A stretch of DNA of 64,000 bases, taken from positions 62,001-126,000 of the forward strand of contig JACAEM010000023.1 of assembly GCA_013388855.1 (NCBI GenBank), written 5' to 3'. Below are positions 1-44,682 of the stretch, one piece after another. The stretch is from Chloroflexota bacterium (lineage in GTDB: Bacteria > Chloroflexota > Anaerolineae > Anaerolineales > Villigracilaceae). Position 1 is the first letter of the stretch; each line of letters opens with the position of its first letter. The notes beneath the pieces were generated by a model. It saw only the letters and a program-made list of their open reading frames with translations. It ran no database searches and was not told the DNA's origin. Both the position numbers and the translations under genes were made by a program.

Positions 1-1543
1 GGTTGGCAGCGAATTCGAGGGTCTGCTGTTTTGAATTAGCAACCCATACACAGGCTGCGTCAACCCCCAACCGGGTGACCACCTGATCAATTAGTATTTG
101 AAATATATTGTCAATATCCAGGCTGCTGGTGATGGCTGTATCAATTTGGCGCAAGGTGCTCAACCGTTCGAGCTGCCTTTTAGTCTGTTCATGTAACTGG
201 GCGCGTTGGATGGTGTTGCCAGCCATCTCGGTGATAGTCATAAGTATATTTTTTTGATGCTCCAGCAGTTCGTGCGGAGAACGAAAGCCAACATGCAATA
301 CCCCGATCGTGGACCAGGTTGTGCGAATTGGGATGAACGCGCCGCTCAACCCTTTTGGAATCCGGGTACGCAAGGAATCGGATGTCAAACGATCTTCTCT
401 CCAATCAGGCGTGAAGTGCGGCTGCGCGCTTGAAAATACTGTTCCAATCATTCCTTCTCCAGGTTTGATGCTGGTTGTGAGCGGGGGAATCCCATTAGTG
501 ACAATTGGATGCAGGCGTTCCTCTGCCGGGTTATAAAGCCAGATGCTTCCCATGATGGCATTCACCGCGCTCATCGTTTTTTCCAGAAGTATGGGCAGCA
601 TTTCATCGAGACTTTGAGCAACACGTGACACTCTGGAAACTGCATTGATCGTTTCCAGTTCTTGAAGACGACGATGAGTCTCTTCGAACAGCCGCGTATT
701 GCTGATGGCGCTCGCCGCGGTCCCGGCAATCAACTTCATCAGGAGGATGTCCGACTCGTCGAATTTCCGCATCGGCGAAATTTCTGCTGCGCTTAATACG
801 CCAATCAACTGGTCGCGATGGATCATCGGCACCTGCAAGACCGATCGAAGTCCATAGCGCTCGAATTCGGGAAGACGACCTTCCCAGAGATCATAGCGCT
901 CTACCAGGAATGGCTGGCGCGTTTCGGCGGCGCGCCCGATAGCACCTTCTCCCATCCGGATCCGCGTTCGTTCGGGAACTTGCAAGCCGTTCACGGCGGC
1001 GATCTCAAGTTCGGAGCGGGCGGCATCATAAAGGGCGATTACAGCAAAAGAAGTGTCCAACAGGATCGAAACTTTATCCACAATGAGAGGTAATAAAGTA
1101 CCCAAGTCGTGCTGAACAGTGAGTTCATTCACGATCTGATCAACTGTTTCTCTTTTATTAGCCAGTCGCTGTAATTTGCCCATGTGCTGTTCCAGAGAAT
1201 CAGCCATATGATCGAACGATTGAGCAAGCTCGGCAAATATGCCTGAGGAATCGTTCGGGCTTGAGCGCGCCGTCAGGTCGCCGGAGGAATGCCGCTTCGC
1301 AAGTTCGACTAAAGATCTGTAGTTATTTAGGATCAGGGCATGCCCATCCAACCAGAGAGCAAAGATGGAGGAAAGCAGAATTAGAATGACCGCCGAAACG
1401 CCCACCTGCTGTTTTGCGATGATCGAATAAGTTACCAGCAGAACTCCTGGAAGGACGGCAAGCAGGATCAGCAGGAAGAATCGGAACCGCAGACTTCCTT
1501 TTATCATTGGGCCTAATTTGTAAAACCACTTTCGAGCAAACAT
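1..1543 (-). CDS. Membrane-anchored multi-GAF sensor protein (partial, 3' end outside window)
   Basis: An open frame runs without a stop from ATG at 1543 to the window edge, giving 514 codons. The start is preceded by AGAGGA. Residues about 18-58 form two hydrophobic segments. A HAMP-like linker follows (about 65-110, '...SSGDLTARSS...FDHMADSLEQ'), then GAF domain 1 (about 120-270), GAF domain 2 (about 285-430) and the start of a third GAF domain ('LSTLRQIDTAITSSLDI'). Such proteins usually end in a histidine kinase, a cyclase or a phosphatase; the output domain lies outside the window, so its type cannot be told. It has its own upstream region with a degenerate copy of the direct-repeat promoter shared by the neighbouring stress genes. 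Confidence is high for a GAF sensor and low for its output. Confidence 0.85.
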   Translation of the reverse strand, partial: MFARKWFYKLGPMIKGSLRFRFFLLILLAVLPGVLLVTYSIIAKQQVGVSAVILILLSSIFALWLDGHALILNNYRSLVELAKRHSSGDLTARSSPNDSSGIFAELAQSFDHMADSLEQHMGKLQRLANKRETVDQIVNELTVQHDLGTLLPLIVDKVSILLDTSFAVIALYDAARSELEIAAVNGLQVPERTRIRMGEGAIGRAAETRQPFLVERYDLWEGRLPEFERYGLRSVLQVPMIHRDQLIGVLSAAEISPMRKFDESDILLMKLIAGTAASAISNTRLFEETHRRLQELETINAVSRVSRVAQSLDEMLPILLEKTMSAVNAIMGSIWLYNPAEERLHPIVTNGIPPLTTSIKPGEGMIGTVFSSAQPHFTPDWREDRLTSDSLRTRIPKGLSGAFIPIRTTWSTIGVLHVGFRSPHELLEHQKNILMTITEMAGNTIQRAQLHEQTKRQLERLSTLRQIDTAITSSLDIDNIFQILIDQVVTRLGVDAACVWVANSKQQTLEFAAN

Positions 1544-1576
1544 GTATCCTCTAACTGAGTGCAGCGCAACAAGCCA

Positions 1577-1629
1577 AACATACTATCCATGAACCAAGCT
1601 CTCACAAATCAAAAATGTTATGAAAGCGT
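1577..1629 (-). promoter_or_regulatory. Direct-repeat promoter, degenerate copy, for the GAF sensor
   Basis: Read on the minus strand, the block contains ACGCTTT, then CATTTTT-like sequence one helical turn later, GATT, TGTGAG at the CATGAC position, exactly 18 nt, and TATGTT as -10. The -10 lies about 34 nt before the ATG at 1543. It is the least conserved of five copies, but the geometry is exact. Confidence 0.5.
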
Positions 1630-1660
1630 TAATCTTCTTTCAAGGGAATTTATGTGAGTC

Positions 1661-2730: not shown

Positions 2731-2769
2731 GTCAGTTTTCCTTGCAAGATTGTTCCACGTCAACCGGCA

Positions 2770-24654: not shown

Positions 24655-26088
24655 ATGAGAACTCTCCGTTTCTGGCAGTTTAATAAGTATAATAATCTCA
24701 GGGATATTCGTATTGTCATGATTTCATTTTGGAAGAAAATTCGTTCTCGCGCAAAATCTGTCGCGGAGGTGCTTGAACGGTGGCGTTGGGTCATCCTGAC
24801 TTTCATTGGGGTTTCTTTGTTATGGGTGGAGGTGCAGGAGTTTATTGCATTGCGGGTACTGAACCAGGCATTTCACTACTTCGAAGTATTTCAATATGCA
24901 GTGCTGTTGATTTCCACCGGTTTGTTGACCGAATTGTTCGCCCGCTCGAATCGTGCGCACAAACAGGCAGTCAAGATTCTGGAATATAAACACAGGCTCA
25001 GTCTTGAATTGACAAACAATGACGACTGGGAGGAGTTGATCCGGAAATTGGCAATCATGCCGGGCAGAATCGCGGATGTGGATGAAACTTACCTATTGAT
25101 CAAAAATCCACTAAGCGGGGATTTTGATATATCCGGTCATTGGGTGGATCAGCAGCAGAATCAACCGGCAAATGCATGGGACCCTACAATTTTATGCGAA
25201 AAATGTATGGAGAAAAGTCTGGATCCCAAACCTGCCTTTCACTTGTGTGGTCGGGATAACGCGACTTCCAGTTATCTTTACAGCCTCGAAGTATCCAGTC
25301 AGAATATCCCGACAACGATACTCAGGTTCAGAGTGAGGCCCGAGGCGAAGTTATCCCGCGACGAAGAGGAAATTTTTACCAATATTCGGGACGAGCTCGT
25401 TGTCGCCATTCTAGCCAGCCAGGACCGAAAGAGACTCTCGGAAATGCAGTCGGCGGAAGTCGCCATGGCGGAACGCCGGATCGTATCGTCTTACGTTCAT
25501 GACCAGCTTGGGCAAAACCTGGGATACATGCATATGAAGCTGGACCAGCTTGGCACACAGGAAACGGCCAACGGATCTAAAGAGATGCGAACGGAGTTGA
25601 AACACCTGCGCGAGGTTGCGAACGAATCCTACGAGATCGTACGTGACATCTTGAAAAAACTTCAACCCGAGACGATTCCCCACTTAACCAACCTCCTGCA
25701 AGAACACGCGCGAACCGTGTCACGCCGGGCAAAGTTTGCACTTAATTTCAAATCCGTAGGAACGCCCGTTCATCTCGCGGCGACCACCCAACAATTAATC
25801 TTCTTCACATTTCGCGAGATCCTGAGCAATGTGGAGAAACATGCCAATGCCGATAAAGTGGAAGTGCTGGTCGTTTGGAACGACGGTATTCTCGATATTT
25901 CCGTCGCCGATAACGGGAAGGGTTTCGATCCCAGCACCGTCAAACGGGACGAACATTTTGGGCTGGGTATCATGCAGGAAAGAATAACTAACATCAAAGG
26001 GAACCTGATGGTCAATTCATCGACCGATTCTGGTACTGTTGTCTCCCTCTCCATTCCGCTTCACACAAACAAAGAGGCAACCGCATGA
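24655..26088 (+). CDS. Membrane histidine kinase of the NarL/DesK-type partner class
   Basis: The 477-residue protein has two membrane helices (about 45-62 and 75-100), a central sensor region that may be GAF-like (about 120-255), then a HisKA_3-type dimerisation segment with 'SSYVHDQLGQNLGYMHMKL' (His near 281). A HATPase domain follows, with 'FREILSNVEKHANA' (N box), 'VADNGKGFD' and 'GLGIMQERI'. It would autophosphorylate and pass phosphate to the response regulator encoded with a 4-bp ATGA overlap. An in-frame ATG at 24718 is an alternative start. Its position just before the exported oxidase cluster suggests control of that cluster. Confidence 0.9.
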   Translation: MRTLRFWQFNKYNNLRDIRIVMISFWKKIRSRAKSVAEVLERWRWVILTFIGVSLLWVEVQEFIALRVLNQAFHYFEVFQYAVLLISTGLLTELFARSNRAHKQAVKILEYKHRLSLELTNNDDWEELIRKLAIMPGRIADVDETYLLIKNPLSGDFDISGHWVDQQQNQPANAWDPTILCEKCMEKSLDPKPAFHLCGRDNATSSYLYSLEVSSQNIPTTILRFRVRPEAKLSRDEEEIFTNIRDELVVAILASQDRKRLSEMQSAEVAMAERRIVSSYVHDQLGQNLGYMHMKLDQLGTQETANGSKEMRTELKHLREVANESYEIVRDILKKLQPETIPHLTNLLQEHARTVSRRAKFALNFKSVGTPVHLAATTQQLIFFTFREILSNVEKHANADKVEVLVVWNDGILDISVADNGKGFDPSTVKRDEHFGLGIMQERITNIKGNLMVNSSTDSGTVVSLSIPLHTNKEATA

Positions 26089-26774
26089 GTGAGAAAGAAG
26101 AAGAAACCCCGCAACGCATCCTGGTCATTGACGACCATGTTCTGTTTCGCGATGGGCTGGTTAGTCTGTTCCGATCCACTCCTGACTTTCAGGTGGTGGA
26201 TCAGGCAGGTTCGGTCAAGGAGGGCATCGAAAAAGCATTCCACCATAGACCTGATATCATCTTGATGGATTTCTCCCTGCCGGATGGGACAGGGCTGGAT
26301 GCAACCCGCGCCATTCTCGATGAATTGCCTGATTGCAAGATTATTTTCCTCACAGTGTTCGAGACAGATGAAAGCTTGCTGACGGCAATCCGCCTGGGAG
26401 CAAAGGGATACATGCTCAAGAACGTATCGAGTTCATCTCTGATCGCAAGTCTGCGCGCGCTCGCCCAGGGGGAGATTGCCATGTCGCGCAAAATGATGAG
26501 CCGGGTGTTGGAATTCTCGCGTTCCATGCCGGTTCCGCCGACCAATGACCGGCTCAATAAATTAAGCCCGCGCGAACTCGATATCTTATATGAGTTGCAG
26601 GACGGGGCGTCGAACATGGAGATTGCCCAACGACTGTATCTCTCCGAAAACACCGTCAAACATCACATTCACAGCATCCTGGAAAAGCTGGGCGTGGAGA
26701 ATCGCCGCCAGGCCGGGATGATTGCCAAGCAATTAGGAGTAAAGAAAGGTAAATCTACAACAGTTAAAAAATGA
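26085..26774 (+). CDS. NarL/FixJ-family response regulator
   Basis: The 229-residue product has a receiver domain (residues 8-125; acidic pair 'IDDH', phospho-acceptor Asp in 'IILMDFSLPDGTG' near 62, Thr in 'IIFLTVFE', Lys in 'KGYMLKN'). A LuxR-type helix-turn-helix follows (about 160-225, 'LSPRELDILYELQDGASNMEIAQ'). It overlaps the kinase gene by 4 bp. Phosphorylated dimers of this family bind inverted repeats near promoters. Targets are not known. The oxidase cluster starting about 600 bp downstream is the nearest candidate. Confidence 0.93.
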   Translation: MSEKEEETPQRILVIDDHVLFRDGLVSLFRSTPDFQVVDQAGSVKEGIEKAFHHRPDIILMDFSLPDGTGLDATRAILDELPDCKIIFLTVFETDESLLTAIRLGAKGYMLKNVSSSSLIASLRALAQGEIAMSRKMMSRVLEFSRSMPVPPTNDRLNKLSPRELDILYELQDGASNMEIAQRLYLSENTVKHHIHSILEKLGVENRRQAGMIAKQLGVKKGKSTTVKK

Positions 26775-27382: not shown

Positions 27383-30300
27383 ATGATTCAACTATCTAAA
27401 CCGAATTCGATCCGCCAGGAAAATACCATCTGGCACCGGAGCACTTCCGTTCTCATGATCCTGATCATGGTCATCGGAACCTTTGTTCCCTTCGCAACAG
27501 CCACCCCGGTCCTTGCGGAACCGCCGGCGGCTCCCACCACCAATCATTTGACGTTGACCGTAGTGGACGCCAGCAACTCCTCGGTGATTACGGACTTCAA
27601 GTACTTGATCAACATCGACAATACCGGAAACCCCTTCCAGCCGCGGAATGCTGGTTGCTCCCCCGAAGACGCCGGCTACCCGGATTCCTGCGACTGGCCA
27701 TCCATCCGCGCGGTGCCTGGCGCCGCCCCAATCTACACCCAGGGCAACCAGGATGACTTCAACGGCAATGTTCTAAACGGACTGGACTTGCCGGATGGCA
27801 AATACCTCATCAGCGTCTTGGCAAACGGATACAAAATGGGCGGCATCCATTTCACCGTGCCATTGCAGGGGACCGGCGAGATCACCGTTGAGTTGCAGCC
27901 TCATCCACTGCCTCCTGCCACCATGCGCATCAAAGTCTTCGAGGACAATGCCTCCGTCAACGGGCAGTTCGACACGGATGAGCACGGTCTCGAGGGTTTC
28001 CACGTCATCATCAATGACATTCTCGGACAGGTCTCCACGGATGTGTTCGGCAATCCGCTTTGCACCACCTACGACGCGGGCGGAAATCCCACCGGCATTA
28101 ATGTGTACGGTTGTACGACCAGCGATGCCAATGGAGACATGGCGATCCCGAACCTGGGACCCAGCCGGTACGATGTACTGGTCGCGCCGCCTCCCGGCAC
28201 AGACTGGACCGAGACCACCACGCTGGAAGGCTCCCCCAGTTGGGACACCTGGCTGCAGGAAGGCGCCACAGGCTTGGATAACGAATTCGTCGTCGCGGCA
28301 GAACCGTTCCCGTGGACGATGTTCGGCTTCGTCAGACCGATGGACAACCTGAATTCCAGTGCAACAGGCGGCATTTCGGGCACGCTCGTTTCCGCGTCGG
28401 TCTATCTCCCACAACAGAACGCCCTGCCCTACTTTGGCGATATCTGGACTGGCTTCACCGGCACGAAAGTGACAGGTCCTATCACCGACGGCTGGGTGGC
28501 GCTTTCTGATCTGCAAAACGGCGACCAGGCGGTTTATGTGGGAGAGGCAAATCCCGACGGGACATTTGCCATCACCAATGTGCCGGACGGCAATTACCTG
28601 TTCACCTGGTGGGACAAAAACCTGCACTACATTCTCGATTGGATGCAAGTCACCGTTTCTGATGGACAGATGACCGACATCGGCACACCGATGTTGACCG
28701 GCTGGTTCACCAAGGTTGAAGGTCACGTCTTCAACGACATGAACAGCAACGGCAAGCGCGACCCCGGCGAACCTGGCATCTCAGATTATCTGGTCGTATT
28801 GAAAGACCGCGACAACAGCGAGATCGACCGCATGTCCATTTCTGCTGTAACCGACGCGGACGGCTACTACGTCTTCGAAAAAGCGTACCCGATGGGTTCG
28901 TGGATGATCCTCGAAGCCTACTCCGACCGCTACTACACCACTGGCGTCACCTATCAAGTGGAGAACCAGCCCGAAGAAACGACCGTTCTCGGCGCGGGCG
29001 TGGACGTGGGCTTCCTGCCCATCCTCGGTCAATCTGGACGGTTGGACTGGGGTGTCCGCCCATACGCTCCCGGCACGAACGGCGGAATCGTCGGTACCGT
29101 TTTCTATGATGTCACCCGCAATGAACTGGATGCGCAATATCAGGCAGTGGAGGGCTGGGCTCCCGGCATCCCCAATCTTTTGGTCACACTCTCCAAACCT
29201 GTCTGGTGCGGAACAACCGGCGCACCTTGCGACCCCACTGAAACATACGAACTTGCTCCCGATGGTTCCATCGCCAAGGATATGACCGCCGGCGGCGTTG
29301 CCTGTGGCACGAACCCCGGCGAACCCTGCGACCCGAGCGGCACATGGGAACTGGACGGCAGTGGCAACTATAAAGTCGGTCCCATTGTCAGCACGGCAAT
29401 CACCGAGACGTGGGAACAGCCCACCGATTGTATTGCCCGCGACGCGAACGGCAATCCGCTTGCATACCCCACGGATCAAGCGGTTCTTCCGCCGGACCCA
29501 ACTGGTAAACGCTGTCTCGAAGGTCCCCTCATGGGTACTCAATTCCAGACTGGCTTCGCCACGCTGGACGGCAACTACGGATTTGATACGGTTTACTCAG
29601 GCTTTGGAACAACTGCCGAACCTGTCGGCACGGAAATCCCCGCCGATGATTACCTCGTCGAAGTAGTCGTCCCCACCGACAGCCTCGGCAGACCTATGTA
29701 CCAGGTCGTACGCGAAGAGGATATCAACATCTTTGGCGGCGATGAATTTATTCCCGCCGTCCCGCCCCCCGCTTGCGCTGGACCGATGCATGTCGTCGAT
29801 GTAGCAGGCGACGGCGTGGATGGACCGAATGCGGTCGACAACCCGTCATTTGCCGACGCGGGCGGCAGTGTCTTCGAGGGCATGGAAAAACCCTTGTGCA
29901 ACGTCAAACTCGTCACGCTCAACAACGGCAAATCCATCGCGCCGGCCTTCACCTTCTTCACCGAGGTCCCCATCCCCGGCAAATGGAAAGGCTACATCAT
30001 CGACGACCTGACTGTTTCGACCAACCCGCAGGACCTGATGTTCGGCGAGAAGGCGGGCGCTCCCCTCATGCCCATCGGCATCTACGATTTCACCAACCGC
30101 CTCGTCGCCACCATGACATCGGACCCGAACGGCGTGTTCGAAATCCTGCTTCCCTCCACACACTCGGTCAACTGCCCAACCCCCTCCGGTGTGTGTCCGA
30201 ACGTCTATTACATGCTGGGCAACGACCCCAACCTGCCCGGATACAATCCGCAATACCGCACCATTGGCGCCAGCTTCGAGATCTACTCCGGATTGATCAT

Positions 30301-33300
30301 CCCCTCGGATCTCGCGCCGACGCAAATTGTTCCCGGTGTATTGGCAGGCGGCTCCCTCTTTAGCAGTCCTCCGCAGTGTATGCTGGACGATGCCACCCCG
30401 CAACTCTTTCGGGTATCCCAGCCGTATGGCCCGCGCGGATCGACCTTCACGATTACCGGCTTGGGCTTCGGAGCGACGGCCGGCAGCGTCACATTTGACG
30501 GCATCCCGCTCAGCACCTCGGCATGGAGCGATACCAGCATCACAGCCACCATTCCAAACAGCATGCCATTCGGCCCTCATCAATTGACGATCATCGCCGC
30601 CAATGGGAAATCAACCGTCAACGGACTCAAATACCACGTCACCGGCACAGGCTACAACCCGCTTGTCTATGAAGTGGGTCCAGGCAGGACATATGCCACC
30701 ATTCAATCGGCAGTGAACGCAGCCGCGGCGGCGACCGGCACCCGCCCACGGCTGGTCGTGGTCTACCCGTCTTCCAGCGGCATGTACCTTGAGAACGTGG
30801 TCATGAACGCCAAGATGAAATTACAGGGCGTGGGTCCCGGCGGCTCGTATGCCGACGGAACAAAGGTGCCCGGCTCTGTGATCGACGGACGCGGCGTCGC
30901 CGGTGACACTCCCTACGCCGAAGCATGGAACGTCTTCATGGCTGGCTTAAGCTGGAGCGGCAATCAAGCCATCTTTGAGGGTCCTGTGGTTTACGTTGTC
31001 GCACAAGACGGAAACTTCAATAACACCAACCCTGCCAGCATCGACGGATTCACCATTCAGGGCGGGGATCAGCAGGGCTTCCCGAACCAGATTGTGCCCA
31101 ACACTGACCCGAGCGTACACGAGGTCTCCGGCGTCCAGGGCGGCGGTATCTACGTCAACGGCTATGCCCGCTATTTGCAGATCACGAACAACATCCTGCA
31201 AAGCAATGGCGGTGCGTACGGCGGGGCCATCCGCCTCGGCACGCCGCATTTACCCGGCGCGTTCAACGACAACCAGAATGATTTCATCCGCATTGCTAAC
31301 AACCGCATCCTCGCCAACGGCGGCACAAACCTGGCGGGCGCAGTGGCAATCTACTCTGGCGCCGAAGGCTACGAAGTGACCGGCAACGACATCTGCGGCA
31401 ACTTCTCGGCGGAATACGGCGGCGGCATCAGCCACTACGGGTTGAGCCCCAACGGACGTATCCACCACAATCGCATCTACTTCAACCGTTCCTACGATGA
31501 AGGCGGCGGCATCATGATCGCCGGTGAACTGCCCGCCGACCCGGACTTGCTCACCCCCGGTGCGGGTCCTGTGGATGTGTACGCCAACCTGATTCAGAAT
31601 AACCTGGCAAACGACGATGGCGGCGGTCTGCGCTTCCTCATGGCGGGCAACTTCCCGTACAACGTCTACAACAATATCATCGTCAACAACATCTCCACCC
31701 ATGAAGGCGGCGGCGTCTCGCTCAACGATGCACCCGACGTGCGCTTCTTCAACAACACGGTGATGAAGAACATCACCACCGCCACCGCCATGACCAGCAA
31801 CGGTCAGCCCGCCCCGGCAGGACTCTCCACCTCGCGCAACAGCAATCTGTTACAAGCCACCCTGCCCGGCGGCTCCCCGCTCTTCAGCGACCCGCTGTTG
31901 TTCAACAACATCTTCTGGGATAACCGGGCTGGGACCTTCGTCGGCAGCACGGTGGCAGGCATAGGCTTGGCAGGCGATCCGAATCCGATCAATCAATGGG
32001 ACCTCGGTGTCTCCGACGGTATCGGTCTGCTCTCGCCGACCAATTCCATGATGCAGGTCACCACCGGGACAATTCCTGATGGATCGAATATTGTCGGTGC
32101 AGACCCAACTGTGGTCGCGACCTACGATACCACTGTCCGTGCTCTGCCCTGGCGCGGCAACCCTCGCTTCGTTGACATCCTGATGATTACCACGGATGCC
32201 ACTCCGAACCTGCTCGGTGACTATCATATTCTCGAAACCTCCCTGGCAGTCAATGCTGGCGCGGCCTCCAAGGGCAGTGTCAACGCACCCGCGCAGGACT
32301 TCGACCGCGGCGCCCGCCCATCGGACGGCGGCTTCGAGATTGGCGCCGATGAGACCCCAGTGGAGGCGGACCTTTCCATCACCAAGACGGATAACCAGAC
32401 CAACGTCACGCCGGGCACCCAGATCCGCTACACCATCACCGTCAGCAACGCCGGACCAGACCCTGTCATCGGCGCAACGGTAACAGATATCTTCCCAACT
32501 CCCTCGCCGCTCGCCGGAACCATCAACTGGACATGCACAGCCAGCGGCGGCGCGGTCTGTGGTGCGGCCAATGGAAGCGGTAACATCTTCCAAACGGTTG
32601 ACCTCCCCGCGGGCGGCACCATCACTTTTGCCACCACGAGCGGCAGTGTTGCCGCAGGAGCCTCCGGCTCCTTGTCGAACACAGCCACCGTTGCCATGCC
32701 GGGCGGCGCTGTTGACCTGAACCCAGCCAACAACAGCGCAACCGACACGGACACTATCATGTCCACATCGAACCTGTCCATCACGAAGACTGACAATGTG
32801 ACGGCAATTTCGGCAGGCGGCATCGTCACCTATACCATCGTGGTCGGCAACAGTGGTCCCAACCCGGTGACCGGAGCTTCGGTAACCGACAACTTCCCGG
32901 CAGATCTGAGCAACATCACCTGGTCCTGTGCTGCGACAAGTGGCTCCAGTTGCTCCGCCCCAGCCGGAAGCGGTAATCTTTTCAATGGCACAGTCAACCT
33001 GTTGAACGGCGGCACCGCAACCTTTACCGCTGTCGCCACCGTTTCATCGACAGCCACTGGGAGCCTTTCCAACACCGCCACCGTGACTGCACCCGTCACC
33101 ACATTCGACCCGAACCTGGGCAACAACAGCGCGACCGACACCGACACCATCATCACCGCCCCGGCATTACCGGCGTTGACGTCGCTCGACACCTTCAACC
33201 GGGCAAATTCCACCACACTCGGCGCAAACTGGAGTCAGACCACCATCGGTGGGCAGGCTGCCATCCGGGTCAATGCCAACCAGGCATTCACCTTTACCAG

Positions 33301-33748
33301 CGGTTGGGCAATCTGGAATGTCCCGGCAGGCGGCTTCGGGAACCGACAGGGCGCTTCCTTCACATTCTCCAATACGCCCATCAATAACGCAACCTTCAGC
33401 CCCAGCCTGATCTTGAAGGCAACCGGAGGCAGCGTCACCACACCCCAAAGATACCTCCGTGTATCGTATCAACACAGCGCCGGGCAGGTAACTGTGACGA
33501 CGGTCAATGGCGGAACGATCAATCGAGCCCGGTTCCCGGTAACCTTTGCCTCCGGCGACACACTGTCAGTCGTTGCCATCCAGGACGGCACCGTGTACGT
33601 GTACAAAAATGGCACACCGATCGGCGCAGTCACCATACCGACTAGCGGAGCCGGCGCGTGGAGCTATGGTTCGGGCGGAGGCCGCATCGGCATCCTCCTG
33701 CCCACCAACCAGCGTGTCGACAATTTCAACGGCGGAACGATTCCGTAA
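27383..33748 (+). CDS. Giant exported multidomain surface protein (2121 residues)
   Basis: A perfect AAGGAGGT precedes the ATG. A signal peptide (about 22-45, 'VLMILIMVIGTFVPFATATPVLA') is followed by Cna-B/SdrD-like beta domains. Clear ones lie near residues 180 ('MRIKVFEDNASVNGQFD'), 445 ('VEGHVFNDMNSNGKRDPGEPG') and 565. Next are an IPT/TIG domain (about 1005-1090), a right-handed beta-helix (about 1100-1640) with many 'GGG' turns and Asn ladders, two DUF11 repeats (about 1660-1790 and 1796-1920, 'LSITKTDN'), and a C-terminal lectin/laminin-like beta domain from about 1930. No LPxTG or anchor is seen. It is likely a secreted matrix or scaffold protein. It leads a same-strand block of oxidase-like genes, so it may present them at the surface; this is inference. 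Confidence 0.88.
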   Translation: MIQLSKPNSIRQENTIWHRSTSVLMILIMVIGTFVPFATATPVLAEPPAAPTTNHLTLTVVDASNSSVITDFKYLINIDNTGNPFQPRNAGCSPEDAGYPDSCDWPSIRAVPGAAPIYTQGNQDDFNGNVLNGLDLPDGKYLISVLANGYKMGGIHFTVPLQGTGEITVELQPHPLPPATMRIKVFEDNASVNGQFDTDEHGLEGFHVIINDILGQVSTDVFGNPLCTTYDAGGNPTGINVYGCTTSDANGDMAIPNLGPSRYDVLVAPPPGTDWTETTTLEGSPSWDTWLQEGATGLDNEFVVAAEPFPWTMFGFVRPMDNLNSSATGGISGTLVSASVYLPQQNALPYFGDIWTGFTGTKVTGPITDGWVALSDLQNGDQAVYVGEANPDGTFAITNVPDGNYLFTWWDKNLHYILDWMQVTVSDGQMTDIGTPMLTGWFTKVEGHVFNDMNSNGKRDPGEPGISDYLVVLKDRDNSEIDRMSISAVTDADGYYVFEKAYPMGSWMILEAYSDRYYTTGVTYQVENQPEETTVLGAGVDVGFLPILGQSGRLDWGVRPYAPGTNGGIVGTVFYDVTRNELDAQYQAVEGWAPGIPNLLVTLSKPVWCGTTGAPCDPTETYELAPDGSIAKDMTAGGVACGTNPGEPCDPSGTWELDGSGNYKVGPIVSTAITETWEQPTDCIARDANGNPLAYPTDQAVLPPDPTGKRCLEGPLMGTQFQTGFATLDGNYGFDTVYSGFGTTAEPVGTEIPADDYLVEVVVPTDSLGRPMYQVVREEDINIFGGDEFIPAVPPPACAGPMHVVDVAGDGVDGPNAVDNPSFADAGGSVFEGMEKPLCNVKLVTLNNGKSIAPAFTFFTEVPIPGKWKGYIIDDLTVSTNPQDLMFGEKAGAPLMPIGIYDFTNRLVATMTSDPNGVFEILLPSTHSVNCPTPSGVCPNVYYMLGNDPNLPGYNPQYRTIGASFEIYSGLIIPSDLAPTQIVPGVLAGGSLFSSPPQCMLDDATPQLFRVSQPYGPRGSTFTITGLGFGATAGSVTFDGIPLSTSAWSDTSITATIPNSMPFGPHQLTIIAANGKSTVNGLKYHVTGTGYNPLVYEVGPGRTYATIQSAVNAAAAATGTRPRLVVVYPSSSGMYLENVVMNAKMKLQGVGPGGSYADGTKVPGSVIDGRGVAGDTPYAEAWNVFMAGLSWSGNQAIFEGPVVYVVAQDGNFNNTNPASIDGFTIQGGDQQGFPNQIVPNTDPSVHEVSGVQGGGIYVNGYARYLQITNNILQSNGGAYGGAIRLGTPHLPGAFNDNQNDFIRIANNRILANGGTNLAGAVAIYSGAEGYEVTGNDICGNFSAEYGGGISHYGLSPNGRIHHNRIYFNRSYDEGGGIMIAGELPADPDLLTPGAGPVDVYANLIQNNLANDDGGGLRFLMAGNFPYNVYNNIIVNNISTHEGGGVSLNDAPDVRFFNNTVMKNITTATAMTSNGQPAPAGLSTSRNSNLLQATLPGGSPLFSDPLLFNNIFWDNRAGTFVGSTVAGIGLAGDPNPINQWDLGVSDGIGLLSPTNSMMQVTTGTIPDGSNIVGADPTVVATYDTTVRALPWRGNPRFVDILMITTDATPNLLGDYHILETSLAVNAGAASKGSVNAPAQDFDRGARPSDGGFEIGADETPVEADLSITKTDNQTNVTPGTQIRYTITVSNAGPDPVIGATVTDIFPTPSPLAGTINWTCTASGGAVCGAANGSGNIFQTVDLPAGGTITFATTSGSVAAGASGSLSNTATVAMPGGAVDLNPANNSATDTDTIMSTSNLSITKTDNVTAISAGGIVTYTIVVGNSGPNPVTGASVTDNFPADLSNITWSCAATSGSSCSAPAGSGNLFNGTVNLLNGGTATFTAVATVSSTATGSLSNTATVTAPVTTFDPNLGNNSATDTDTIITAPALPALTSLDTFNRANSTTLGANWSQTTIGGQAAIRVNANQAFTFTSGWAIWNVPAGGFGNRQGASFTFSNTPINNATFSPSLILKATGGSVTTPQRYLRVSYQHSAGQVTVTTVNGGTINRARFPVTFASGDTLSVVAIQDGTVYVYKNGTPIGAVTIPTSGAGAWSYGSGGGRIGILLPTNQRVDNFNGGTIP

Positions 33749-33816: not shown

Positions 33817-35109
33817 ATGAAACAGAATCAATTTTCAGGTCGTGTGAGTCGCCGTGATTTCCTCAAACTGACGGGCGGCGGTCTGCTCGCTGCCGGCGGC
33901 TTGGGCCTCCTGCGCAAATATCTCTCGCCCGAGTCGGTGGCGTTTGCCCAGATTGATCCGCCAGACAAGATCTTTGCCGCAACAGACGGCTGGATGTACC
34001 TGCCGCCTCTTCCCACGCCCTCGCCATTCCATCCCGACGACCTTTCCCCCGACCCCAGCCTGTTCACCACCTACATCTTCGGATTCCGTGATGTCACCGG
34101 TATGACCGATGAGCAGATCCTGAACCAGAAAATGAAGGCGCAACATTCCGCCCCTATGTTCTGGATCGACGAAGATCAGACATTTAGACTTGAACTGCGG
34201 AATCTCGGTTTGCAAATGCGACCCGACTTGACGGACGCCCACACGGTCCACTTCCACGGCTTTAAGAATGCCATTCCATTCTTCGATGGCGAACCCTCCT
34301 CCTCGGTATCTGTGCCGATGAACCGGGCATTCACCTACGTGTATCGTCCACATGACCCCGGCACGTACATGTTCCACTGCCACGTGGAGGACGTGGAGCA
34401 TGTCCAAATGGGTATGACCGGTCTGGTCTTTATCCGCCCGGCGCAGAATGGAAACACTTCCCTGTACCCGAGCGGCAAATACGTGTTCAACGACGGCGAC
34501 GGTTCCACGGGATACGACCGCGAGTTCGGCATGATGTTGACGGAAATGTGGGTGGACTCGCACTGGTCGGATTCTCACATTCAACTCCCTGAATGGAGCG
34601 ATTACAAGCCCGACTTCTCGATGATCAACGGACGCGTCTACCCCGACACCATCGCTCCCAAAGGACAGGGATTCGACACCAATGGCGATTTGATTGCCCC
34701 TGCCGGGTTCCCCAATCTTCAATATCAGCCCATCAGTTCCCTCGTGGAATGCAATGCCGGTGACCGAGTCTTATTGCGCTTTGCCAATCTCGGTTTCATG
34801 CAGGCCTCAATGACCCTCGAAGGCATCCAGATGCGCGTGGTCGGGAAGGATGCCACCTACCTAAACAATGGCGGAATCGATCTTAGTTACCTCACCAACA
34901 CGGTCGTAATCCATGCCGGGGAAAGTGTGGACGCCATTTTCACCGCTCCTCCCCACTCCGGCGGGAGCGGACCGGATACCTATCTGCTTTACAACCGCAA
35001 CTTCACCATGTCCCATTCCATCGGTGATTTCGGCGTTGGCAAGCAAATGACCGAGATCCGCGTCCACCCAGCCGGCACTCTTTCCGCGCAAACGGAACCG
35101 AACACCTAA
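33817..35109 (+). CDS. Multicopper oxidase-like protein 1 (type 1 copper plus half of the trinuclear ligands)
   Basis: The start has GAGGAG upstream. The 430-residue product opens with a Tat signal ('SRRDFLKLTGGGLLAAGGLG'), meaning export in folded, perhaps copper-loaded, form. The first cupredoxin domain has 'HTVHFHG' (His 142, 145, 147) and 'HCHVEDVEHVQMGM' (His 187, Cys 188, His 189, His 195, Met 200), a full type 1 site plus two HxH pairs. The second domain (about 230-430) has no such motifs. A complete trinuclear cluster needs four HxH pairs, and the other two occur in the next gene. An electron-accepting oxidase for metals or phenols is likely; the substrate is unknown. Confidence 0.9.
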   Translation: MKQNQFSGRVSRRDFLKLTGGGLLAAGGLGLLRKYLSPESVAFAQIDPPDKIFAATDGWMYLPPLPTPSPFHPDDLSPDPSLFTTYIFGFRDVTGMTDEQILNQKMKAQHSAPMFWIDEDQTFRLELRNLGLQMRPDLTDAHTVHFHGFKNAIPFFDGEPSSSVSVPMNRAFTYVYRPHDPGTYMFHCHVEDVEHVQMGMTGLVFIRPAQNGNTSLYPSGKYVFNDGDGSTGYDREFGMMLTEMWVDSHWSDSHIQLPEWSDYKPDFSMINGRVYPDTIAPKGQGFDTNGDLIAPAGFPNLQYQPISSLVECNAGDRVLLRFANLGFMQASMTLEGIQMRVVGKDATYLNNGGIDLSYLTNTVVIHAGESVDAIFTAPPHSGGSGPDTYLLYNRNFTMSHSIGDFGVGKQMTEIRVHPAGTLSAQTEPNT

Positions 35110-35136
35110 GCCAGCTCAGGCAACAAGGAGTTAACC

Positions 35137-36414
35137 ATGCAAAAGCATATTCACATAAAACCCCGTAAGGTTTTGGCAGTCTTCTTTGTGCTGGCGTTGA
35201 TGATCTCCATGATCCCGTTCGGGAATGGAGCGGTAAGCGCACAGGGACCCCTGACCGATGGGATGGTTTGCACGAATGGACCAAGTTTCACCCTCACAAC
35301 CAATACCGGTTATATCGGCACTCCCGATGGGAATGTCGTGTACATGTGGGGACTTTCGTCCGGGTCTGATCCGTTCCAATACCCTGGACCAGTGTTGTGC
35401 GTCAACCAGGGCGATACGGTCACCATCGTCCTGCACAATACCCTGAACCGCAAGACCTCACTGATCTTCCCAGGGCAGGAAAATGTTCTCGCCAACGGAC
35501 AACCAGACGGACCGGAATTCAGCGGCACCACTCTCGTCTCGCTTGCCAGGACCGCCGCGGCGAATGGCGGCTCCGTCACCTACAGTTTTGTGGCACAGCG
35601 TCCCGGCACCTTCGTTTACCAAAGCGGCACCGAGACCGATATTCAGGTCCCGATGGGCCTATTCGGAGCGCTGGTCGTCCGCCCGGCGGGGCATCCTGAT
35701 TGGCTATACGACAGCCCCAGCACTGCGTTCAATCCGAACCGGGAATACATCTCCCTATTCTCTGAAGTGGACCCCGCGCTCAGCACCGCGATGGAGCGCA
35801 ATCGCCCGTTTAACACCCGCAACTACCATCCCCGTTACTGGTTCATCAACGGACGCGGCCTCCCCGACACCCTCGCGCCGAACAACGCTTCCTGGCTTCC
35901 CAGCCAACCCTATGGCGCGTTGGTCCGCATCACCCCCTATCACCCGACTCTGAATCCGCTTCCCGCGGCGGTACGGTACCTCAGCGTGGGCAGCATCGAC
36001 TACCCCTTCCATCCACATGGCAACAATGTGCGCGTGGTGGGACGGGACGGCAACCTGCTGGAAAGTTCCACGTTCGAGGATTTGGCATACGACAAATACT
36101 CCATCCCGGTCGGACCCGGTCAGGCGTGGGATACCCTCTTCACCTGGCAGGACCCTGAAGCGTACAGTGAAACCAACCCGGTGCCCGTTACCTTCCCGAA
36201 CATCCTGGACCTGTTCTTCGGCACATTCTTCAGCGGCAGCCCCTACCTTGGATCGCAGGGTGAACTTCCGGTTGGAACCACCGTTCAAAATCAATGCGGA
36301 GAGTTCTACCACATCGCCCATAACCATGCCCTGTATCAACTCACCTCATGGGGCGCGGTTATGACAGGCATGGGAACCTACACCCGCATCGATCCGCCGA
36401 CAGGCTGTCCATAA
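35137..36414 (+). CDS. Multicopper oxidase-like protein 2 (other half of the trinuclear ligands, no type 1 Cys)
   Basis: The start has AAGGAG upstream. The 425-residue product has a Sec signal (residues 10-36). Its first cupredoxin domain lacks copper ligands ('GTFVYQSGTETDIQVPMG' where HCH would be). The last domain has 'FHPHGNN' (His 292, 294) and 'HIAHNHALYQ' (His 392, 395, 397), equal in place to the HxH pairs of a C-terminal laccase domain, but with Asn in place of the type 1 Cys. It thus has exactly the pairs that protein 1 lacks. The gene lies 27 bp after protein 1. The two may pair to make one copper site; this is inference. Confidence 0.88.
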   Translation: MQKHIHIKPRKVLAVFFVLALMISMIPFGNGAVSAQGPLTDGMVCTNGPSFTLTTNTGYIGTPDGNVVYMWGLSSGSDPFQYPGPVLCVNQGDTVTIVLHNTLNRKTSLIFPGQENVLANGQPDGPEFSGTTLVSLARTAAANGGSVTYSFVAQRPGTFVYQSGTETDIQVPMGLFGALVVRPAGHPDWLYDSPSTAFNPNREYISLFSEVDPALSTAMERNRPFNTRNYHPRYWFINGRGLPDTLAPNNASWLPSQPYGALVRITPYHPTLNPLPAAVRYLSVGSIDYPFHPHGNNVRVVGRDGNLLESSTFEDLAYDKYSIPVGPGQAWDTLFTWQDPEAYSETNPVPVTFPNILDLFFGTFFSGSPYLGSQGELPVGTTVQNQCGEFYHIAHNHALYQLTSWGAVMTGMGTYTRIDPPTGCP

Positions 36415-39796: not shown

Positions 39797-39836
39797 TGAC
39801 TGGATGTTCGCGGGTTTCCGCGAACATCCAGTCAAA
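39797..39836 (+). other. Long perfect intergenic hairpin
   Basis: Positions 39797-39814 and 39819-39836 are perfect inverted repeats: an 18-bp stem with a GTTT loop. It lies between the stop at 39779 and the GTG at 39876. No T-run follows, so it is not a typical terminator. It would sequester nothing of the next ribosome site, and may block exonucleases or mark a repeat family. Confidence 0.75.
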
Positions 39837-39875
39837 CCAATTCAAAACTGCTCTACTGCTCTAAGGAGACTTCCT

Positions 39876-40850
39876 GTGAAACCCAAACTACTCATGTGGA
39901 CCGCAATCGCGCTAATGTTGTGCACCGGAATCCTGCACCTCATCGCGGTTCCTGATGAATACAGCGAATCCCCTTATATGGGCTGGCTATTCATTGTTAA
40001 TTTTCTCGGAACGCTTGTCGCAGCGTGGGGGCTGTTGCGCAGTCGGATCATCTGGGGGTGGGGGTTGGGGACCATCATCGTTGCCGGTTCCATCATCGGT
40101 TACCTTCTCAGCCGCACGGTCGGGCTGCCCGGCACGGGAGTGGAGGAATGGGCAGATCTCCAGGGCATCTGGGGACTCGTATCCGGCAAGGCAATAGATC
40201 AATCCTTCAAGGATGTGTGCAGCGCCATCGCACAGGAATCCTTCGGAAGCAATTCCTTTGGATTGATCGGACTCCTGGCAATACTTGTAGAAACCGCGTT
40301 CCTCGGGACGCTTGTTCTTGCCAAGCCGTGGGCCGATCCCGTTATGAAAACCGACCTCCTCGCCTTCAACGCCTCCGCCAAACAAATGCGGCAGAGCCGG
40401 TTCTTCCTCCCTGCCATGATGCTTGCTACGATCTTGATTGGCTTCTTCTCCTATCAGATCGGAGTGCAAAGTGTAAAAGCACACGATTCCGAACACCCGC
40501 TCCCGGAGACCATCATCTCCGCCCAAACCCTGGAGGAAGAATATGGCATCCAGATGTACCTCGTGGCGGTTACCGCCGCGGGCGGCATGGTGGATGTCCG
40601 GTACCGCATTATCGACCCCGACAAGGCGGCAAAGTTGGTCGACCCGGAGGACGGCGGCATCATGCCAATGGTCTATGTGCAGAACGGCGACATCATGCTC
40701 ATGCCCGATATGCACATGCGCAAACAGCAACTCATCGCAGACCGCATGTACTTCACCCTAATTCCCAATACCCGGAACGTTGTTCACCGCGGCACGATTG
40801 TAACCGTTTCGTTCGGAAACGTTGCGCTCGAGCCGATGATTGCCAAATAA
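39876..40850 (+). CDS. Membrane protein with Met/His-rich external tail
   Basis: I choose GTG 39876 because AAGGAGA lies 7-8 nt upstream; an ATG in the hairpin at 39804 has none. The 324-residue product has three N-terminal membrane helices (about residues 5-25, 34-52 and 58-78) and two more (about 120-145 and 175-195). An external C-terminal domain of about 125 residues follows. This tail starts '[11 protein letters not shown]' and contains '[15 protein letters not shown]' (about 270-284), a Met/His cluster of the kind seen in copper-binding proteins. No family is recognised. Between oxidase and protease genes, a role in copper delivery or sensing is possible but unproven. Confidence 0.7.
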
Positions 40851-40863
40851 CGTGAACGATCTC

Positions 40864-43197
40864 ATGCGGAGAATCATCGCGCCCTTCCTTGCCCTGTTTT
40901 TACTATGCGGGCTGATGCTCGCGCCCGCCATGACGGCGCGAGCGGGGAGTGATTCAGCCGCGTGGCAGATCCATAATGTCTCCGGAGATAAACTTTCCCC
41001 GCGTCTGCGGGAACAACTCTCCACGCTGGCAGGGGAAGAAACGATCACGGTCATCGTCCGGCTGCGACAGCAGGCAACCCTCCCGCGTGGAAAGAGCCTA
41101 GGGAGCGCGGAGCAGCTTTCCCGTGTGATCGAAGCGCTGTCATCCACCGCCGAACAAACCCAGGCTTCGGTCAGGAATTTCCTTGATCGCCAAAAATCCG
41201 CGGGACAGGTCAAACACTTTACGTCCTTCTGGATCTTCAATGGTTTCTCCGTCACCGCCACATCCGACGCGATACTTGAACTCTCGCTCCAACCGGATGT
41301 GCTATCCATCACGCCGGACGACCTCGACATCATCCCGGTTTCGACGCTCCCCTATTTGAGCAACCCCGGACCCAACCTCACGCTGGTCAATGCACCGGCG
41401 CTATGGAGCCTGGGATATACCGGGCAGGGTGTGGTGGTCGCTTCGATGGACAGCGGCGTGGACCTCTCCCATCCCGACCTTTCCAGCCGCTGGCGCGGCG
41501 GGACGAACAGTTGGTACGATCCATATGGTCAGCATCCGGCCACGCCTACGGACAAGAGTGGTCACGGTACATGGACGATGGGGGTCATGGTCGGCGGCGA
41601 CGCGGGCGGCTCATCCATCGGTGTGGCGCCCGATGCCCAGTGGATCGCGGTCAAGATGTTCAACGACGCAGGAAGTTCCACCGCCACTGCCATCCATCAG
41701 GGATTCCAATGGCTGCTCGATCCTGATGGCAACCCAAACACGAACGATGCTCCAGATGTGATCAACAATTCATGGAGTTTTTCCGCTCCGGGTTGTTATC
41801 TGGATTTTGAACCTGACTTGCAGGCGTTGCGTGCGGCAGGCATTCTGCCCATCTTCGCGGCAGGCAACGGTGGACCGAATGCCGGCACCAGTTACAGCCC
41901 GGCAAACAATCCCTCCGCCTTCGCAGTGGGAGCAATCAACAACAGCAGTTCCATCTACGGTTTGAGCAGCCGCGGTCCCACCACTTGCGGCGGCTCAACA
42001 GGCGTCTTCCCGGAGGTGGTTGCGCCTGGCGTCAACATCAACACGGCCGATCTCGGAGGGTTCTACACGACCGCCTCAGGCACTTCCCTTGCCGCGCCGC
42101 ACGCAGCGGGAGGGCTGGCGCTTTTGCTTTCCGCGTTTCCCAATCTGACTGTCATCGAACAGGAAAACATTCTAATCAACTCCGCCGTGGACCTCGGCGC
42201 GGCAGGGCCCGACAACACCTACGGGAACGGTCGCATCGATTTGCTTGCAGCGTACAACGCATTGATATCGCCAGCCACAGCCACGCCCACTTCGATCTCG
42301 AACACTGTGACCAACACCCCGGTGCCGCCGACAAACACAACCACTCATACGGCAACAAACACAGTCACCAACACCCCCATTCCACCGACAAGCACAGTAA
42401 CGAACACGGCGACCCTGACCTCGACGTTCACATCCACACCCACCAAGACTGCCACTGCGACCAGCACGTTTACGAACACTCCTGTCCTGCCGACAAGCAC
42501 ATTGACCAAGACCGCTACACCGACTCATACGTTCACAAGTACGGCGCTTCCCACGACAACATATACATTCACCAGCACGGCCATCCCGCCAACAGCCACG
42601 ATCCCGCCATCGCCGACTGCAACAAAGTCATCGTCCCAGCGGTCAGTCGTTGTGACGCCTGTCTTTCTCACCACACAAAACGGATCGGCCTCCGGCTCTG
42701 TTTCAAGCCTGGGACTGCTCCAACAAACCGGAACAGACGATAACCCTGACGCGTACGTCACCTTCCAGACGCCAGGCTCCGTATACATCGGATATCGTTC
42801 ATTCCACCTGCCGAACGACGTCCAGCCTTCGCTCATCTCCAGCACGCTGGTGCAAGTCAATTTCAAGGGCCCGTCCTCCGCCACCCAGAAATGGACGTTC
42901 TCCATTTACGACTGGAACAAAAAGATGTGGGTCAAACTGGGTGATTCAACCGGCACTGCCGCGGGTCAATGGAATGGACTGACCTTCCGTATCAGTGCCC
43001 TCTCACGGTACGTGTCACCGGCACGCGAGATCCGGATTCGGTTGCAGTCAAGCAACGCAAACGGCGATGCAAAGCTGGATTATGAGGCATTGCACATCAC
43101 CTACCGCCCGGTGGAGGCAACCGTCGTTTCCGCCGCGCCAACCGTCCCTGCGCGGCGACCCGGCATCCTCTTCACAGGCAGCGCTCCCCCCCGTTGA
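40864..43197 (+). CDS. Secreted subtilisin-like serine protease (S8)
   Basis: About 777 residues. Signal peptide (residues 2-25), inhibitor-I9-like propeptide (about 45-150), then an S8 domain with the full catalytic triad: Asp in '[13 protein letters not shown]' (about 196), His in 'SGHGTWTMG' (about 233) and Ser in '[13 protein letters not shown]' (about 406). A long Thr/Pro/Asn-rich linker (about 475-590) leads to a C-terminal beta domain of about 150 residues. It could mature or trim the other exported proteins of the cluster. The start is unsure: GTG 40852 and TTG 40840 are in frame, and no strong ribosome site marks any of the three. Confidence 0.92.
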
Positions 43198-43233: not shown

Positions 43234-44682
43234 ATGAAACGGATGGTTTCCCTCCGAACGATTTTGGTTATCCTGTTTACCATTGGTACGTTATACGCGT
43301 CCCATCCCGCCTCCGCCGCAGCGACCATCGCCGTGACCACCACAACCGACTCCCTTGCAGAGGATGGTTTATGCTCGTTGCGGGAGGCTGTGATCTCGGC
43401 AAACACCGACACGGCGACAGGAAACTGTCCGGCAGGCAACGGCGCGGATGTGATCGTCTTCGACGCCTCCCTGCCGGACCCGGCGGTCTTCTCGCTCACA
43501 TTGACCGGAGCCAATGAAGACTCAGCCGCCACCGGCGACCTCGACCTGACAGGCGCTCTCCACATCCAGGGGGCAGGGACGGAACGGATCGTCATCGATG
43601 GGAATGGCACAGACCGCGTTTTTGACATCCGACCCGGCGCGACGGTCACGATCTCCGGCGTCACCGTTCGGAATGGCAATCCGGGGAGTGGTGCAAATGG
43701 CGGCGGGGTCATCGTTACGGGCGGCACGCCGCGCGCCAAATTAACGCTGCTAAACAGCGTGGTCACGGGGAATACCGCCGTCATCGGAGGCGGCATCCAA
43801 AATGCGGGCAATGGCGCGACCGCCGTCATTCAGGATACACAGGTTGTTTCAAACAGCGCAGTGACATCCGGCGGCGGGATTGCCAACAGCGGCGACCTGA
43901 CCATTCTCAACAGCACACTCGCCCAAAATCAGGCAAGAAGCGGAGGGGGGATCGAGCATTCGGGCTTCTCCTTGAAACTGACCAATGTTACGGTCAGTGG
44001 GAACTCTGTCAGCGACAACGGCGGCGGACTTTACAATCGCGGAGATGCTATCCTGCTGAACGTCACTTTCCACGGCAACACCGCCAGTGGACCGGATACT
44101 GGCGGGAATCTCTTCAACGACAATGCCTCATTGGCAGTCAAGAACTCCATCCTTGCAGCTTCGAACGCAGATGGGAATTGTTTCAACAACGAAGGTACCA
44201 TGGTCTCGCAAGGTAACAACCTTGAAAGTGGAGATACCTGCGGCTTCCATGCAGGGGGTGATCTGATCAATACTGATCCGATGCTGGGTCCCCTGCAAGA
44301 CAACGGCGGCTTTACGCTCACACATGCTCTGCTGGCAGGCAGCCCCGCCATCGACGCGGGGACGAACAACGGTTGTCCGTCCACCGACCAGCGCGGAGTT
44401 TCCCGCCCCGTGGATGGCGAGCTCGACGGGACTTTGACTTGCGACATCGGCGCGTATGAGTTCGACGCCGTCACGAACACGCCAACAGCCTCGCCAACTG
44501 CCCATCCTACCGATTCTCCCACACCCACATTGACTGCGCTCGCCCCAACCGCCACCCATACGCCTACTTCCACGCCGATCACGCCCACTCCCACGCCGCC
44601 AACCACGCCCTGCGCAGGTGCTGTCCTGCCTTTGGTATTCCTGCTTTTGTTCGTCTACCAATCAGGGTTGGCTAAGAAATAG
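43234..44682 (+). CDS. CSLREA-type right-handed beta-helix surface protein
   Basis: The 482-residue product has a signal peptide (residues 8-30) and a CSLREA motif ('DGLCSLREAVISANT', about 44-58). Parallel beta-helix repeats follow (about 95-330, 'GGGI.N.G.LTI.NSTL..N.A'), then a choice-of-anchor end ('AGSPAIDAGTNNGCPSTDQRG...IGAYEF'), a Thr/Pro linker (about 410-455) and a C-terminal hydrophobic helix with 'AKK' (about 460-482) that would hold it in the membrane. It is the last gene of the exported block, closed by a strong terminator 9 bp on. Its ligand, perhaps a polysaccharide, is unknown. Confidence 0.88.
   Translation: MKRMVSLRTILVILFTIGTLYASHPASAAATIAVTTTTDSLAEDGLCSLREAVISANTDTATGNCPAGNGADVIVFDASLPDPAVFSLTLTGANEDSAATGDLDLTGALHIQGAGTERIVIDGNGTDRVFDIRPGATVTISGVTVRNGNPGSGANGGGVIVTGGTPRAKLTLLNSVVTGNTAVIGGGIQNAGNGATAVIQDTQVVSNSAVTSGGGIANSGDLTILNSTLAQNQARSGGGIEHSGFSLKLTNVTVSGNSVSDNGGGLYNRGDAILLNVTFHGNTASGPDTGGNLFNDNASLAVKNSILAASNADGNCFNNEGTMVSQGNNLESGDTCGFHAGGDLINTDPMLGPLQDNGGFTLTHALLAGSPAIDAGTNNGCPSTDQRGVSRPVDGELDGTLTCDIGAYEFDAVTNTPTASPTAHPTDSPTPTLTALAPTATHTPTSTPITPTPTPPTTPCAGAVLPLVFLLLFVYQSGLAKK

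Follow-up and report, generated by a model that had tools for sequence, protein, structure and literature searches.

In the multicopper oxidases described in the literature consulted for comparison, the trinuclear copper cluster is formed by a single chain or by identical chains together. Among the two-domain enzymes, types A, B and C have been defined, with the cluster placed between adjacent protomers (PMC13151041). Ceruloplasmin, the other six-domain blue oxidases and, among these, bacterial MnxG-like proteins are described as having six domains and one trinuclear cluster, the other sites having been lost, and for the blue oxidases the loss of the redundant sites of a six-domain ancestor down to a single cluster has been proposed (PMC3600357). 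Here we analyzed a locus in a 64,000-nucleotide stretch of a Chloroflexota contig (JACAEM010000023.1 of assembly GCA_013388855.1, positions 62,001 to 126,000; hereafter the window), in which three tandem genes, P1, P2, and P3, encode proteins with two cupredoxin domains each (D1 and D2), and whose genes, taken together, suggest that two different proteins form the cluster and that the other two sites were erased. With a probability of about three in four, we read P1, P2, and P3 as an obligate heteromer, most likely a ring of the ceruloplasmin kind whose only trinuclear cluster lies at the P2-D2/P1-D1 interface. No published multicopper oxidase with a cluster across different gene products was found among the open-access literature matches listed.

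A preliminary description of the locus had assigned to P1 a type 1 copper site and two HxH pairs (HFH and HCH), and to P2 the two remaining pairs (HPH at 292, HNH at 395-397) without a type 1 Cys; for P1 the coordinates, reading frames and motifs held, and the P2 half was likewise borne out by the sequence (Table 1). In the first domain of P1 the ligands follow each other as H142-TV-H145-F-H147-G ... H187-C188-H189-VEDVE-H195-VQMG-M200, while in P2 the type 1 position is not a Cys and H292-P-H294 continues with G. The ligand set of a multicopper oxidase (eight cluster His plus the type 1 H/C/H/(M)) is present in P1 and P2 jointly and in neither alone. Four pairs within each protein, an outcome named in the preliminary description as speaking against a shared site, were not encountered, P1-D2 and P2-D1 being without a His pair at the ligand sites, and judging from the ligands seen, a homotrimer of P1 or of P2 could not form a cluster. 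The spacing of 27 bases was confirmed (35110-35136, from the end of the P1 stop to the ATG of P2). Export of P1 by the twin-arginine (Tat) route agrees with its SRRDFLK signal (TIGR01409, 21.5 bits vs. a cut-off of 16.7), and the Sec route suggested for P2 is consistent with a hydrophobic, Sec-like leader, as read from the sequence only. As a Tat substrate P1 should exit folded, so that, together with the leader of P2, the cluster would be completed only outside the cytoplasm. All three proteins show the Cu-oxidase profile of the multicopper oxidase superfamily, with Pfam matches above the cut-off to PF07731, PF07732, and PF00394 in P1, to PF07732 and PF07731 in P2, and to PF07732 in P3 (Cu-oxidase_3, 45.5 bits), and the best PDB sequence match of P1 is 3g5w.

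Table 1. Features of the oxidase locus in the window (aa, amino acids; D1 and D2, first and second cupredoxin domain)
Feature	Position	Strand	Remarks
P1	33817..35109	+	430 aa, two cupredoxin domains, Tat signal; D1 with type 1 Cu site and two His pairs, D2 with none
P1 H142 (type 1) and H145-F-H147 (first trinuclear His pair)	34240..34257	+	sequence
P1 H187-C188-H189 (second His pair and type 1 Cys), H195, M200 (type 1)	34375..34416	+	sequence
P2	35137..36414	+	425 aa, two cupredoxin domains, Sec-like leader; D1 with no pair, D2 with the other two pairs
P2 H292-P-H294 (third trinuclear His pair)	36010..36018	+	sequence
P2 H395-N-H397 (fourth trinuclear His pair)	36319..36327	+	sequence
P3	36444..39779	+	1111 aa; two-domain fold in about residues 35-328, lacking copper ligands, followed by Ig-like repeats
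G0	27383..33748	+	2121-aa surface protein with SdrD_B, TIG, and DUF11; middle part beta-helix-like by eye
Downstream membrane protein	39804..40850	+	Met-rich soluble C-terminal part; candidate accessory gene

Two simpler explanations were considered and rejected. P1, P2, and P3 are three genes, each with its own start and stop, and a frameshift or an assembly split of one oxidase is ruled out by the separate start, leader, and stop of each gene and by the identical split in dozens of genomes. That P1 or P2 is a complete oxidase is ruled out by the ligand table described below, in which each chain is without two of the four pairs.

The ligand table was taken from an alignment of 81 P1, 78 P2, and 73 P3 sequences, with three whole enzymes that carry all four His pairs in one chain (L013, L014, and L018) as yardstick. 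In the nine clusters that were aligned first, the copper His of P1 and P2 and the P1 Cys were invariant, a pattern that chance comes nowhere near explaining. Over the whole set, both His pairs of P1-D1 were intact in 80 of the 81 rows (the first, HFH, in all 81), its type 1 Cys and His were present in 81/81, and the pairs of P2-D2 were whole in every covered row (78/78 for H292-P-H294 and 77/77 for H395-N-H397). At the complementary sites, no His pair was found in P1-D2 in 80 covered rows, single His occurring only in L100 and L112, and the four places hold mostly T, A/D, Y, and R (also S/K/R/V; T/E/P and others; F; and N). None of the four His was found in P2-D1 in 77 covered rows, where the places hold mostly V/M/I, P, E/Q, and G and the type 1 Cys is replaced by Ser throughout (77/77). 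P3 showed no His pair in either domain (73 rows, 69-72 covered per column) and a single His in a ligand column in three rows. Some of the substitutes at the lost sites are fixed, namely Tyr (73/81) and Arg (78/81) in P1-D2 as well as Glu or Gln for the first His of HCH in P2-D1 (74/77) and P3-D1 (71/72), a hint that polar packing took the place of copper at interfaces that no longer hold a cluster.

Single rows depart from this picture in different ways. P1 of a Dactylosporangium metagenome-assembled genome (MAG; L121, 2-1366) reads LCH for HCH, either because the His is truly lost or through a fault in the assembly. At the axial Met position, the equivalent of M200 is Leu in L041 (G376), a locus outside the 81-row set. 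In another MAG (L069, 2707-3725), P2 is broken into two overlapping reading frames (211 + 197 aa) by a real frameshift or an assembly error, and only the piece with domain 2 was counted in the ligand table.

The pairing of the genes was followed in three sets of genomes. A P1 scan of a species-genome collection gave 464 relatives, of which the best 80 were kept as loci for all 80-locus counts; these best 80 belong mostly to Chloroflexota and Actinomycetota (31 by title), with Methylobacter tundripaludum (L062), two other Methylococcaceae, and one deltaproteobacterium as further hosts. P2 adjoins P1 on the same strand in 77/80 loci, and the remaining three contigs end ≤ 302 bases from P1. P3 lies downstream in 72/80; in L088 it was found further downstream by a wider search, behind a long N-terminal part, the contig of L097 ends inside a DUF11-like part that could precede P3, and the other six contigs without P3 end before it. 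When 400 genomes of the window's phylum were searched, P2 proper (> 250 bits) was found in eight and P1 proper (> 600 bits) in the same eight, neither alone at these thresholds, and the nine clusters in these genomes (two in G246) all have the order P1-P2-P3 on one strand. P2 matches occurred in 26 genomes of this search, 18 of them weaker (all < 95 bits), and the weaker ones looked at were those of G185, G244, G300, G321, G328, G340, and G352. Several of the 80 loci are the same contigs as in the phylum search, and the two sets are not additive. Starting from P2, 296 genomes of the phylum that includes Micromonospora (G401) were searched; three of them held P2, at four places in all, with P1 at 4/4 and P3 at all except one, at a contig end (the G401 locus being L113). 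Paired presence, proposed in the preliminary description as a check, was thus the rule on all three counts, and a homologue of one gene without the other, proposed there as a counter-argument, was not found in the 400-genome, 80-locus, and 296-genome sets. Neither P3, the third tandem copy without a His pair, nor the conserved giant gene G0 upstream had been noticed in that description. A match to some part of G0 lies upstream on the same strand in 73/73 loci having at least 1.5 kb of upstream sequence. Across at least three phyla G0 consistently opens the oxidase cassette, and the arrangement G0-P1-P2-P3 is conserved among Chloroflexota, Actinomycetota, methanotrophs, and one deltaproteobacterium.

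In a tree of 79 rows from 23 of the 81 loci, hand-picked for spread, P1, P2, and P3 each form one group (99-100 in the Shimodaira-Hasegawa-like approximate likelihood ratio test, SH-aLRT), with P2 and P3 together; the whole type-C enzymes and the other splits make up another group in the same tree. Among these other splits, L044 (3759-6053, minus strand) and L045 (4405-6741, minus strand) of family f30 are two-gene splits in reversed order, whose type 1 partner keeps H-E-H in domain 2; they read as a split of a type-C enzyme in which the loss is less complete than in P1/P2. L043 of G185 (572-3019, minus strand) is a single chain of 815 aa with ligand pairs in D1 and D4 and without them in D2 and D3, and has a C-terminal plastocyanin-like part, read by eye; going by its ligand pattern, it is a natural single-chain version of a split oxidase and as such speaks for the shared cluster. 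The relative in G340 (L019) is without one D2 ligand position and was treated as a group of its own in the tree. A single split event common to P1/P2 and to f30/G185 was rejected by approximately unbiased (AU) tests, which used 15 hand-picked loci and quick trees with long branches (p 0.006 for P1+SA+FA and p 7e-5 for P2+SB+FB, where SA/FA are the type 1 partners and SB/FB the other partners in the f30 splits and the G185 fusion), which makes it most likely that complementary loss arose at least twice independently. The ancestor would have been a type-C-like two-domain oxidase, a homotrimer with three clusters between D2 and the D1 of the next chain, and gene duplication would have been followed by complementary decay of two of the three cluster sites. 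Such a loss in P1/P2/P3 would parallel the six-domain decay scheme (PMC3600357).

Structure models were built with AlphaFold2; some loci read in one frame, and such natural read-through chains were folded. The fused P1+P2 of the window (820 aa; 58 rows, 18 paired) reached a mean predicted local distance difference test (pLDDT) score of 83.2 and a predicted template modelling (pTM) score of 0.84, and P1+P2+P3 of L049 (1167 aa; 59 rows, 5 fully paired, with 24 P3-only rows left out of the three-protein alignment) a mean pLDDT of 82.2 and a pTM of 0.85. With VIA-align, the P1+P2 model superposes on 6vow (Z 23.8, 377 residues, 2.9 Å, model range 1..814), and since P1 ends at model residue 385 with P2 after it, the match spans P1 and P2 in one rigid frame. 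We take 6vow to be a three-domain oxidase; 6vox, the adjoining entry in the PDB matches, has a second copper motif near residue 388, and in three-domain oxidases the cluster is held by domains 1 and 3. With the N-terminal part of P1 and the C-terminal part of P2 as first and last domains, the superposition on 6vow places P1-D1 against P2-D2. The top structural matches are 3g5w and 2zwn both for P2 (Z 28.4-28.5) and for P3 of L049 (Z 30.4-30.6), the latter having the same fold (residues 885..1167 of the three-chain model match 3g5w with Z 30.6 over 266 residues at 2.0 Å). The 1:1 complex that the preliminary description had put forward for modelling docks confidently, with P1-D1 predicted against P2-D2, and its central proposal of one site across two subunits is supported by ligands, co-occurrence, and docking; what is to be amended is the unit, which is likelier to be 1:1:1 with P3 than 1:1.

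Taken as a mechanism, the heteromer would be a P1:P2:P3 ring of six cupredoxin domains outside the cytoplasm. Its single trinuclear cluster would sit at P2-D2/P1-D1, with four His from each side, next to one type 1 copper in P1-D1, and P1-D2/P3-D1 and P3-D2/P2-D1 would remain as copper-free structural interfaces. Electrons from an extracellular substrate (phenolics or metal ions are the usual ones in the superfamily) would be accepted by the type 1 copper of P1 and pass over the His-Cys-His bridge to the cluster, where O2 would be reduced to water. Through its Ig-like repeats P3 probably anchors the enzyme, either on the cell surface or on G0, and P3 and G0 together probably supply the surface attachment.

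Covariation between the subunits was measured as mutual information with average product correction (APC) in the 73 of 81 loci whose cassettes hold all three proteins (effective number 56). The top 100 between-protein pairs include 49 of P1-D1/P2-D2 (4.3 times expectation) and 36 of P1-D2/P2-D2, against 3 of P1-D1/P2-D1, 2 of P1-D2/P2-D1, and 10 for all pairs with P3 together, and under other weightings the P1-D1/P2-D2 share is 50-53/100. The P1 site of 29 of these 49 pairs lies in 150-169, just behind H145-F-H147, and the P2 site of 36 in 390-419, around H395-N-H397. When P2 was shuffled within clades, both the near-site mean (0.061 vs. 0.042-0.057, standard deviation 0.001-0.002) and the top score (0.56 vs. 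0.37-0.51) of the real data stayed above the shuffles. Covariation gives weak support to the P1-D1/P2-D2 contact and none to a contact of P3.

Several results weigh against the heteromeric ring. The same shuffles still left 52-56 of the top 100 pairs in P1-D1/P2-D2 (real 52), so most of the covariation reflects shared ancestry. AlphaFold2 knows homotrimeric relatives and might dock any such pair likewise. When the three-chain model was superposed on ceruloplasmin in chain order with Foldseek, template modelling (TM) scores of 0.20-0.24 with a root mean square deviation of about 33 Å were obtained; a ring with the cluster at P2-D2/P1-D1 must run P1-P3-P2, so a superposition in chain order is expected to fail, but other arrangements would fail too, and the outcome is no positive proof of a ring. 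The absence of ceruloplasmin from the 50 VIA-align matches of the three-chain model, nearly all of which fall on P3, says nothing about the ring. The P1 with LCH described above, one cluster His short, is the sole exception to the ligand split. Lastly, no covariation excess of P3 with P1 or P2 was seen in the 73 cassettes, so that the place of P3 in the ring rests on the models and the gene order.

This last point speaks for an arrangement in which P1 and P2 share the cluster in another stoichiometry and P3 stays outside the ring as a copper-free anchor or scaffold. The mostly longer branches of P3 in the tree and the split relatives L044 and L045, where 14 kb contain no more than two such genes, point the same way. 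We nevertheless hold it to be unlikely, as P3 keeps both cupredoxin domains (in the 69/73 rows that cover the last ligand column; the remaining rows are truncated or have a gap at this point), keeps its place downstream of P2, and is part of a three-chain model with a pTM of 0.85. Considerably less probable is an arrangement without any cluster, in which P1 alone, or as a homotrimer, is a type 1 electron-transfer protein and P2 has its own mononuclear site for copper or another metal: the type 1 site of P1-D1 is complete, as this would demand, but the four cluster His of P1-D1 and the four of P2-D2 are kept in register with the whole type-C enzymes, and P1 and P2 were not found apart in the 400 genomes of the phylum and dock in the model. 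That all three are structural surface proteins of a decayed oxidase with relic ligands, to which P3 without a His pair and the incomplete P1 of L121 would lend themselves, is hardly credible given ligands near invariant over at least three phyla despite divergence to about 50% identity elsewhere.

If the heteromeric ring is accepted, the question of its reach arises, and on balance we favor, with some reservation, a widespread class of obligate heterotrimeric oxidases with an unfused, ceruloplasmin-like ring of three paralogous subunits, a single O2-reducing cluster common to two gene products, and P3 as copper-free pseudo-subunit and anchor, in which complementary decay occurred at least twice, perhaps three times. 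In such a system one can test directly how the partners of a shared metal site are chosen, exported, and loaded with copper, and the system also offers an experimental model for the decay of redundant clusters to one, as proposed for ceruloplasmin. For annotation the locus holds a warning, as profile searches label P1, P2, and P3 each as a multicopper oxidase, though none of them should work alone.

Further observations concern P3 and the genes around the cassette. An alternative start of P3 at 36414 overlaps the P2 stop (TAATG). Long N-terminal extensions stand ahead of the cupredoxin part of P3 in L088 (8727-13361), L093 (8505-13157), and L063 (8741-12649), and the reading frame in the place of P3 in L097 (8285-11329) has one as well; where the sequence was read (L088, L097) they are DUF11-like by eye. 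The downstream membrane protein has no Pfam family above the cut-off, and matches to it were found in 42/80 loci; in 41 of these the match begins downstream of P2, in the same orientation. Its Met-rich C-terminus is present in the window and the nearest relatives and not in more distant rows, and our guess is that the protein could serve copper delivery. Upstream of G0, a histidine kinase and a LuxR-type response regulator (24655-26774) may control the cassette. Downstream of the cassette follow a subtilase with a GH114-associated domain (40840-43197) and a secreted protein whose repeats look beta-helix-like by eye (43234-44682).

Compared with the known systems, the locus shares traits with several and coincides with none of those considered. 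NirK assembles two-domain chains into a trimer in which three His at the interface of the chains bind one type 2 copper, and its fold matches the models; P1+P2 instead keep eight oxidase His, and the NirK profile TIGR02376 gives 25-41 bits vs. a cut-off of 296, which places them outside that class. Three-domain laccases and their relatives (6vow, 6vox) are one chain with the type 1 copper in the last domain (domain 3); the P1+P2 model superposes on 6vow as described above, yet here each chain has two domains and the type 1 site is in domain 1 of P1. The type C two-domain multicopper oxidases, to which 3g5w (Nitrosomonas europaea) and 2zwn (from a metagenome) belong, resemble P1 in having two cupredoxin domains, the first of which carries the type 1 site. 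In these enzymes every chain carries both halves of the site, so that three identical chains give three clusters, whereas here the halves are split between two proteins and the third has none. Type C is defined by chains that each carry His pairs in their two domains, and as P1-D2, P2-D1, P3-D1, and P3-D2 are without a pair, we did not file the proteins under it. The f30 and G185 relatives, from the same phylum, show whole, split, and fused forms, but in a clade separate from P1/P2. A six-domain ring with one cluster fits the ligand count and would be in keeping with the confidence of the three-chain model, against the low chain-order TM scores given above. The ceruloplasmin-type oxidases have six cupredoxin domains and a single cluster between two of them, in one fused chain with type 1 sites in even domains, whereas here the domains are spread over three genes and the type 1 site is in an odd one (P1-D1); if our reading is true, the locus would be a present-day equivalent of the process by which the six-domain blue oxidases are proposed to have lost their redundant sites.

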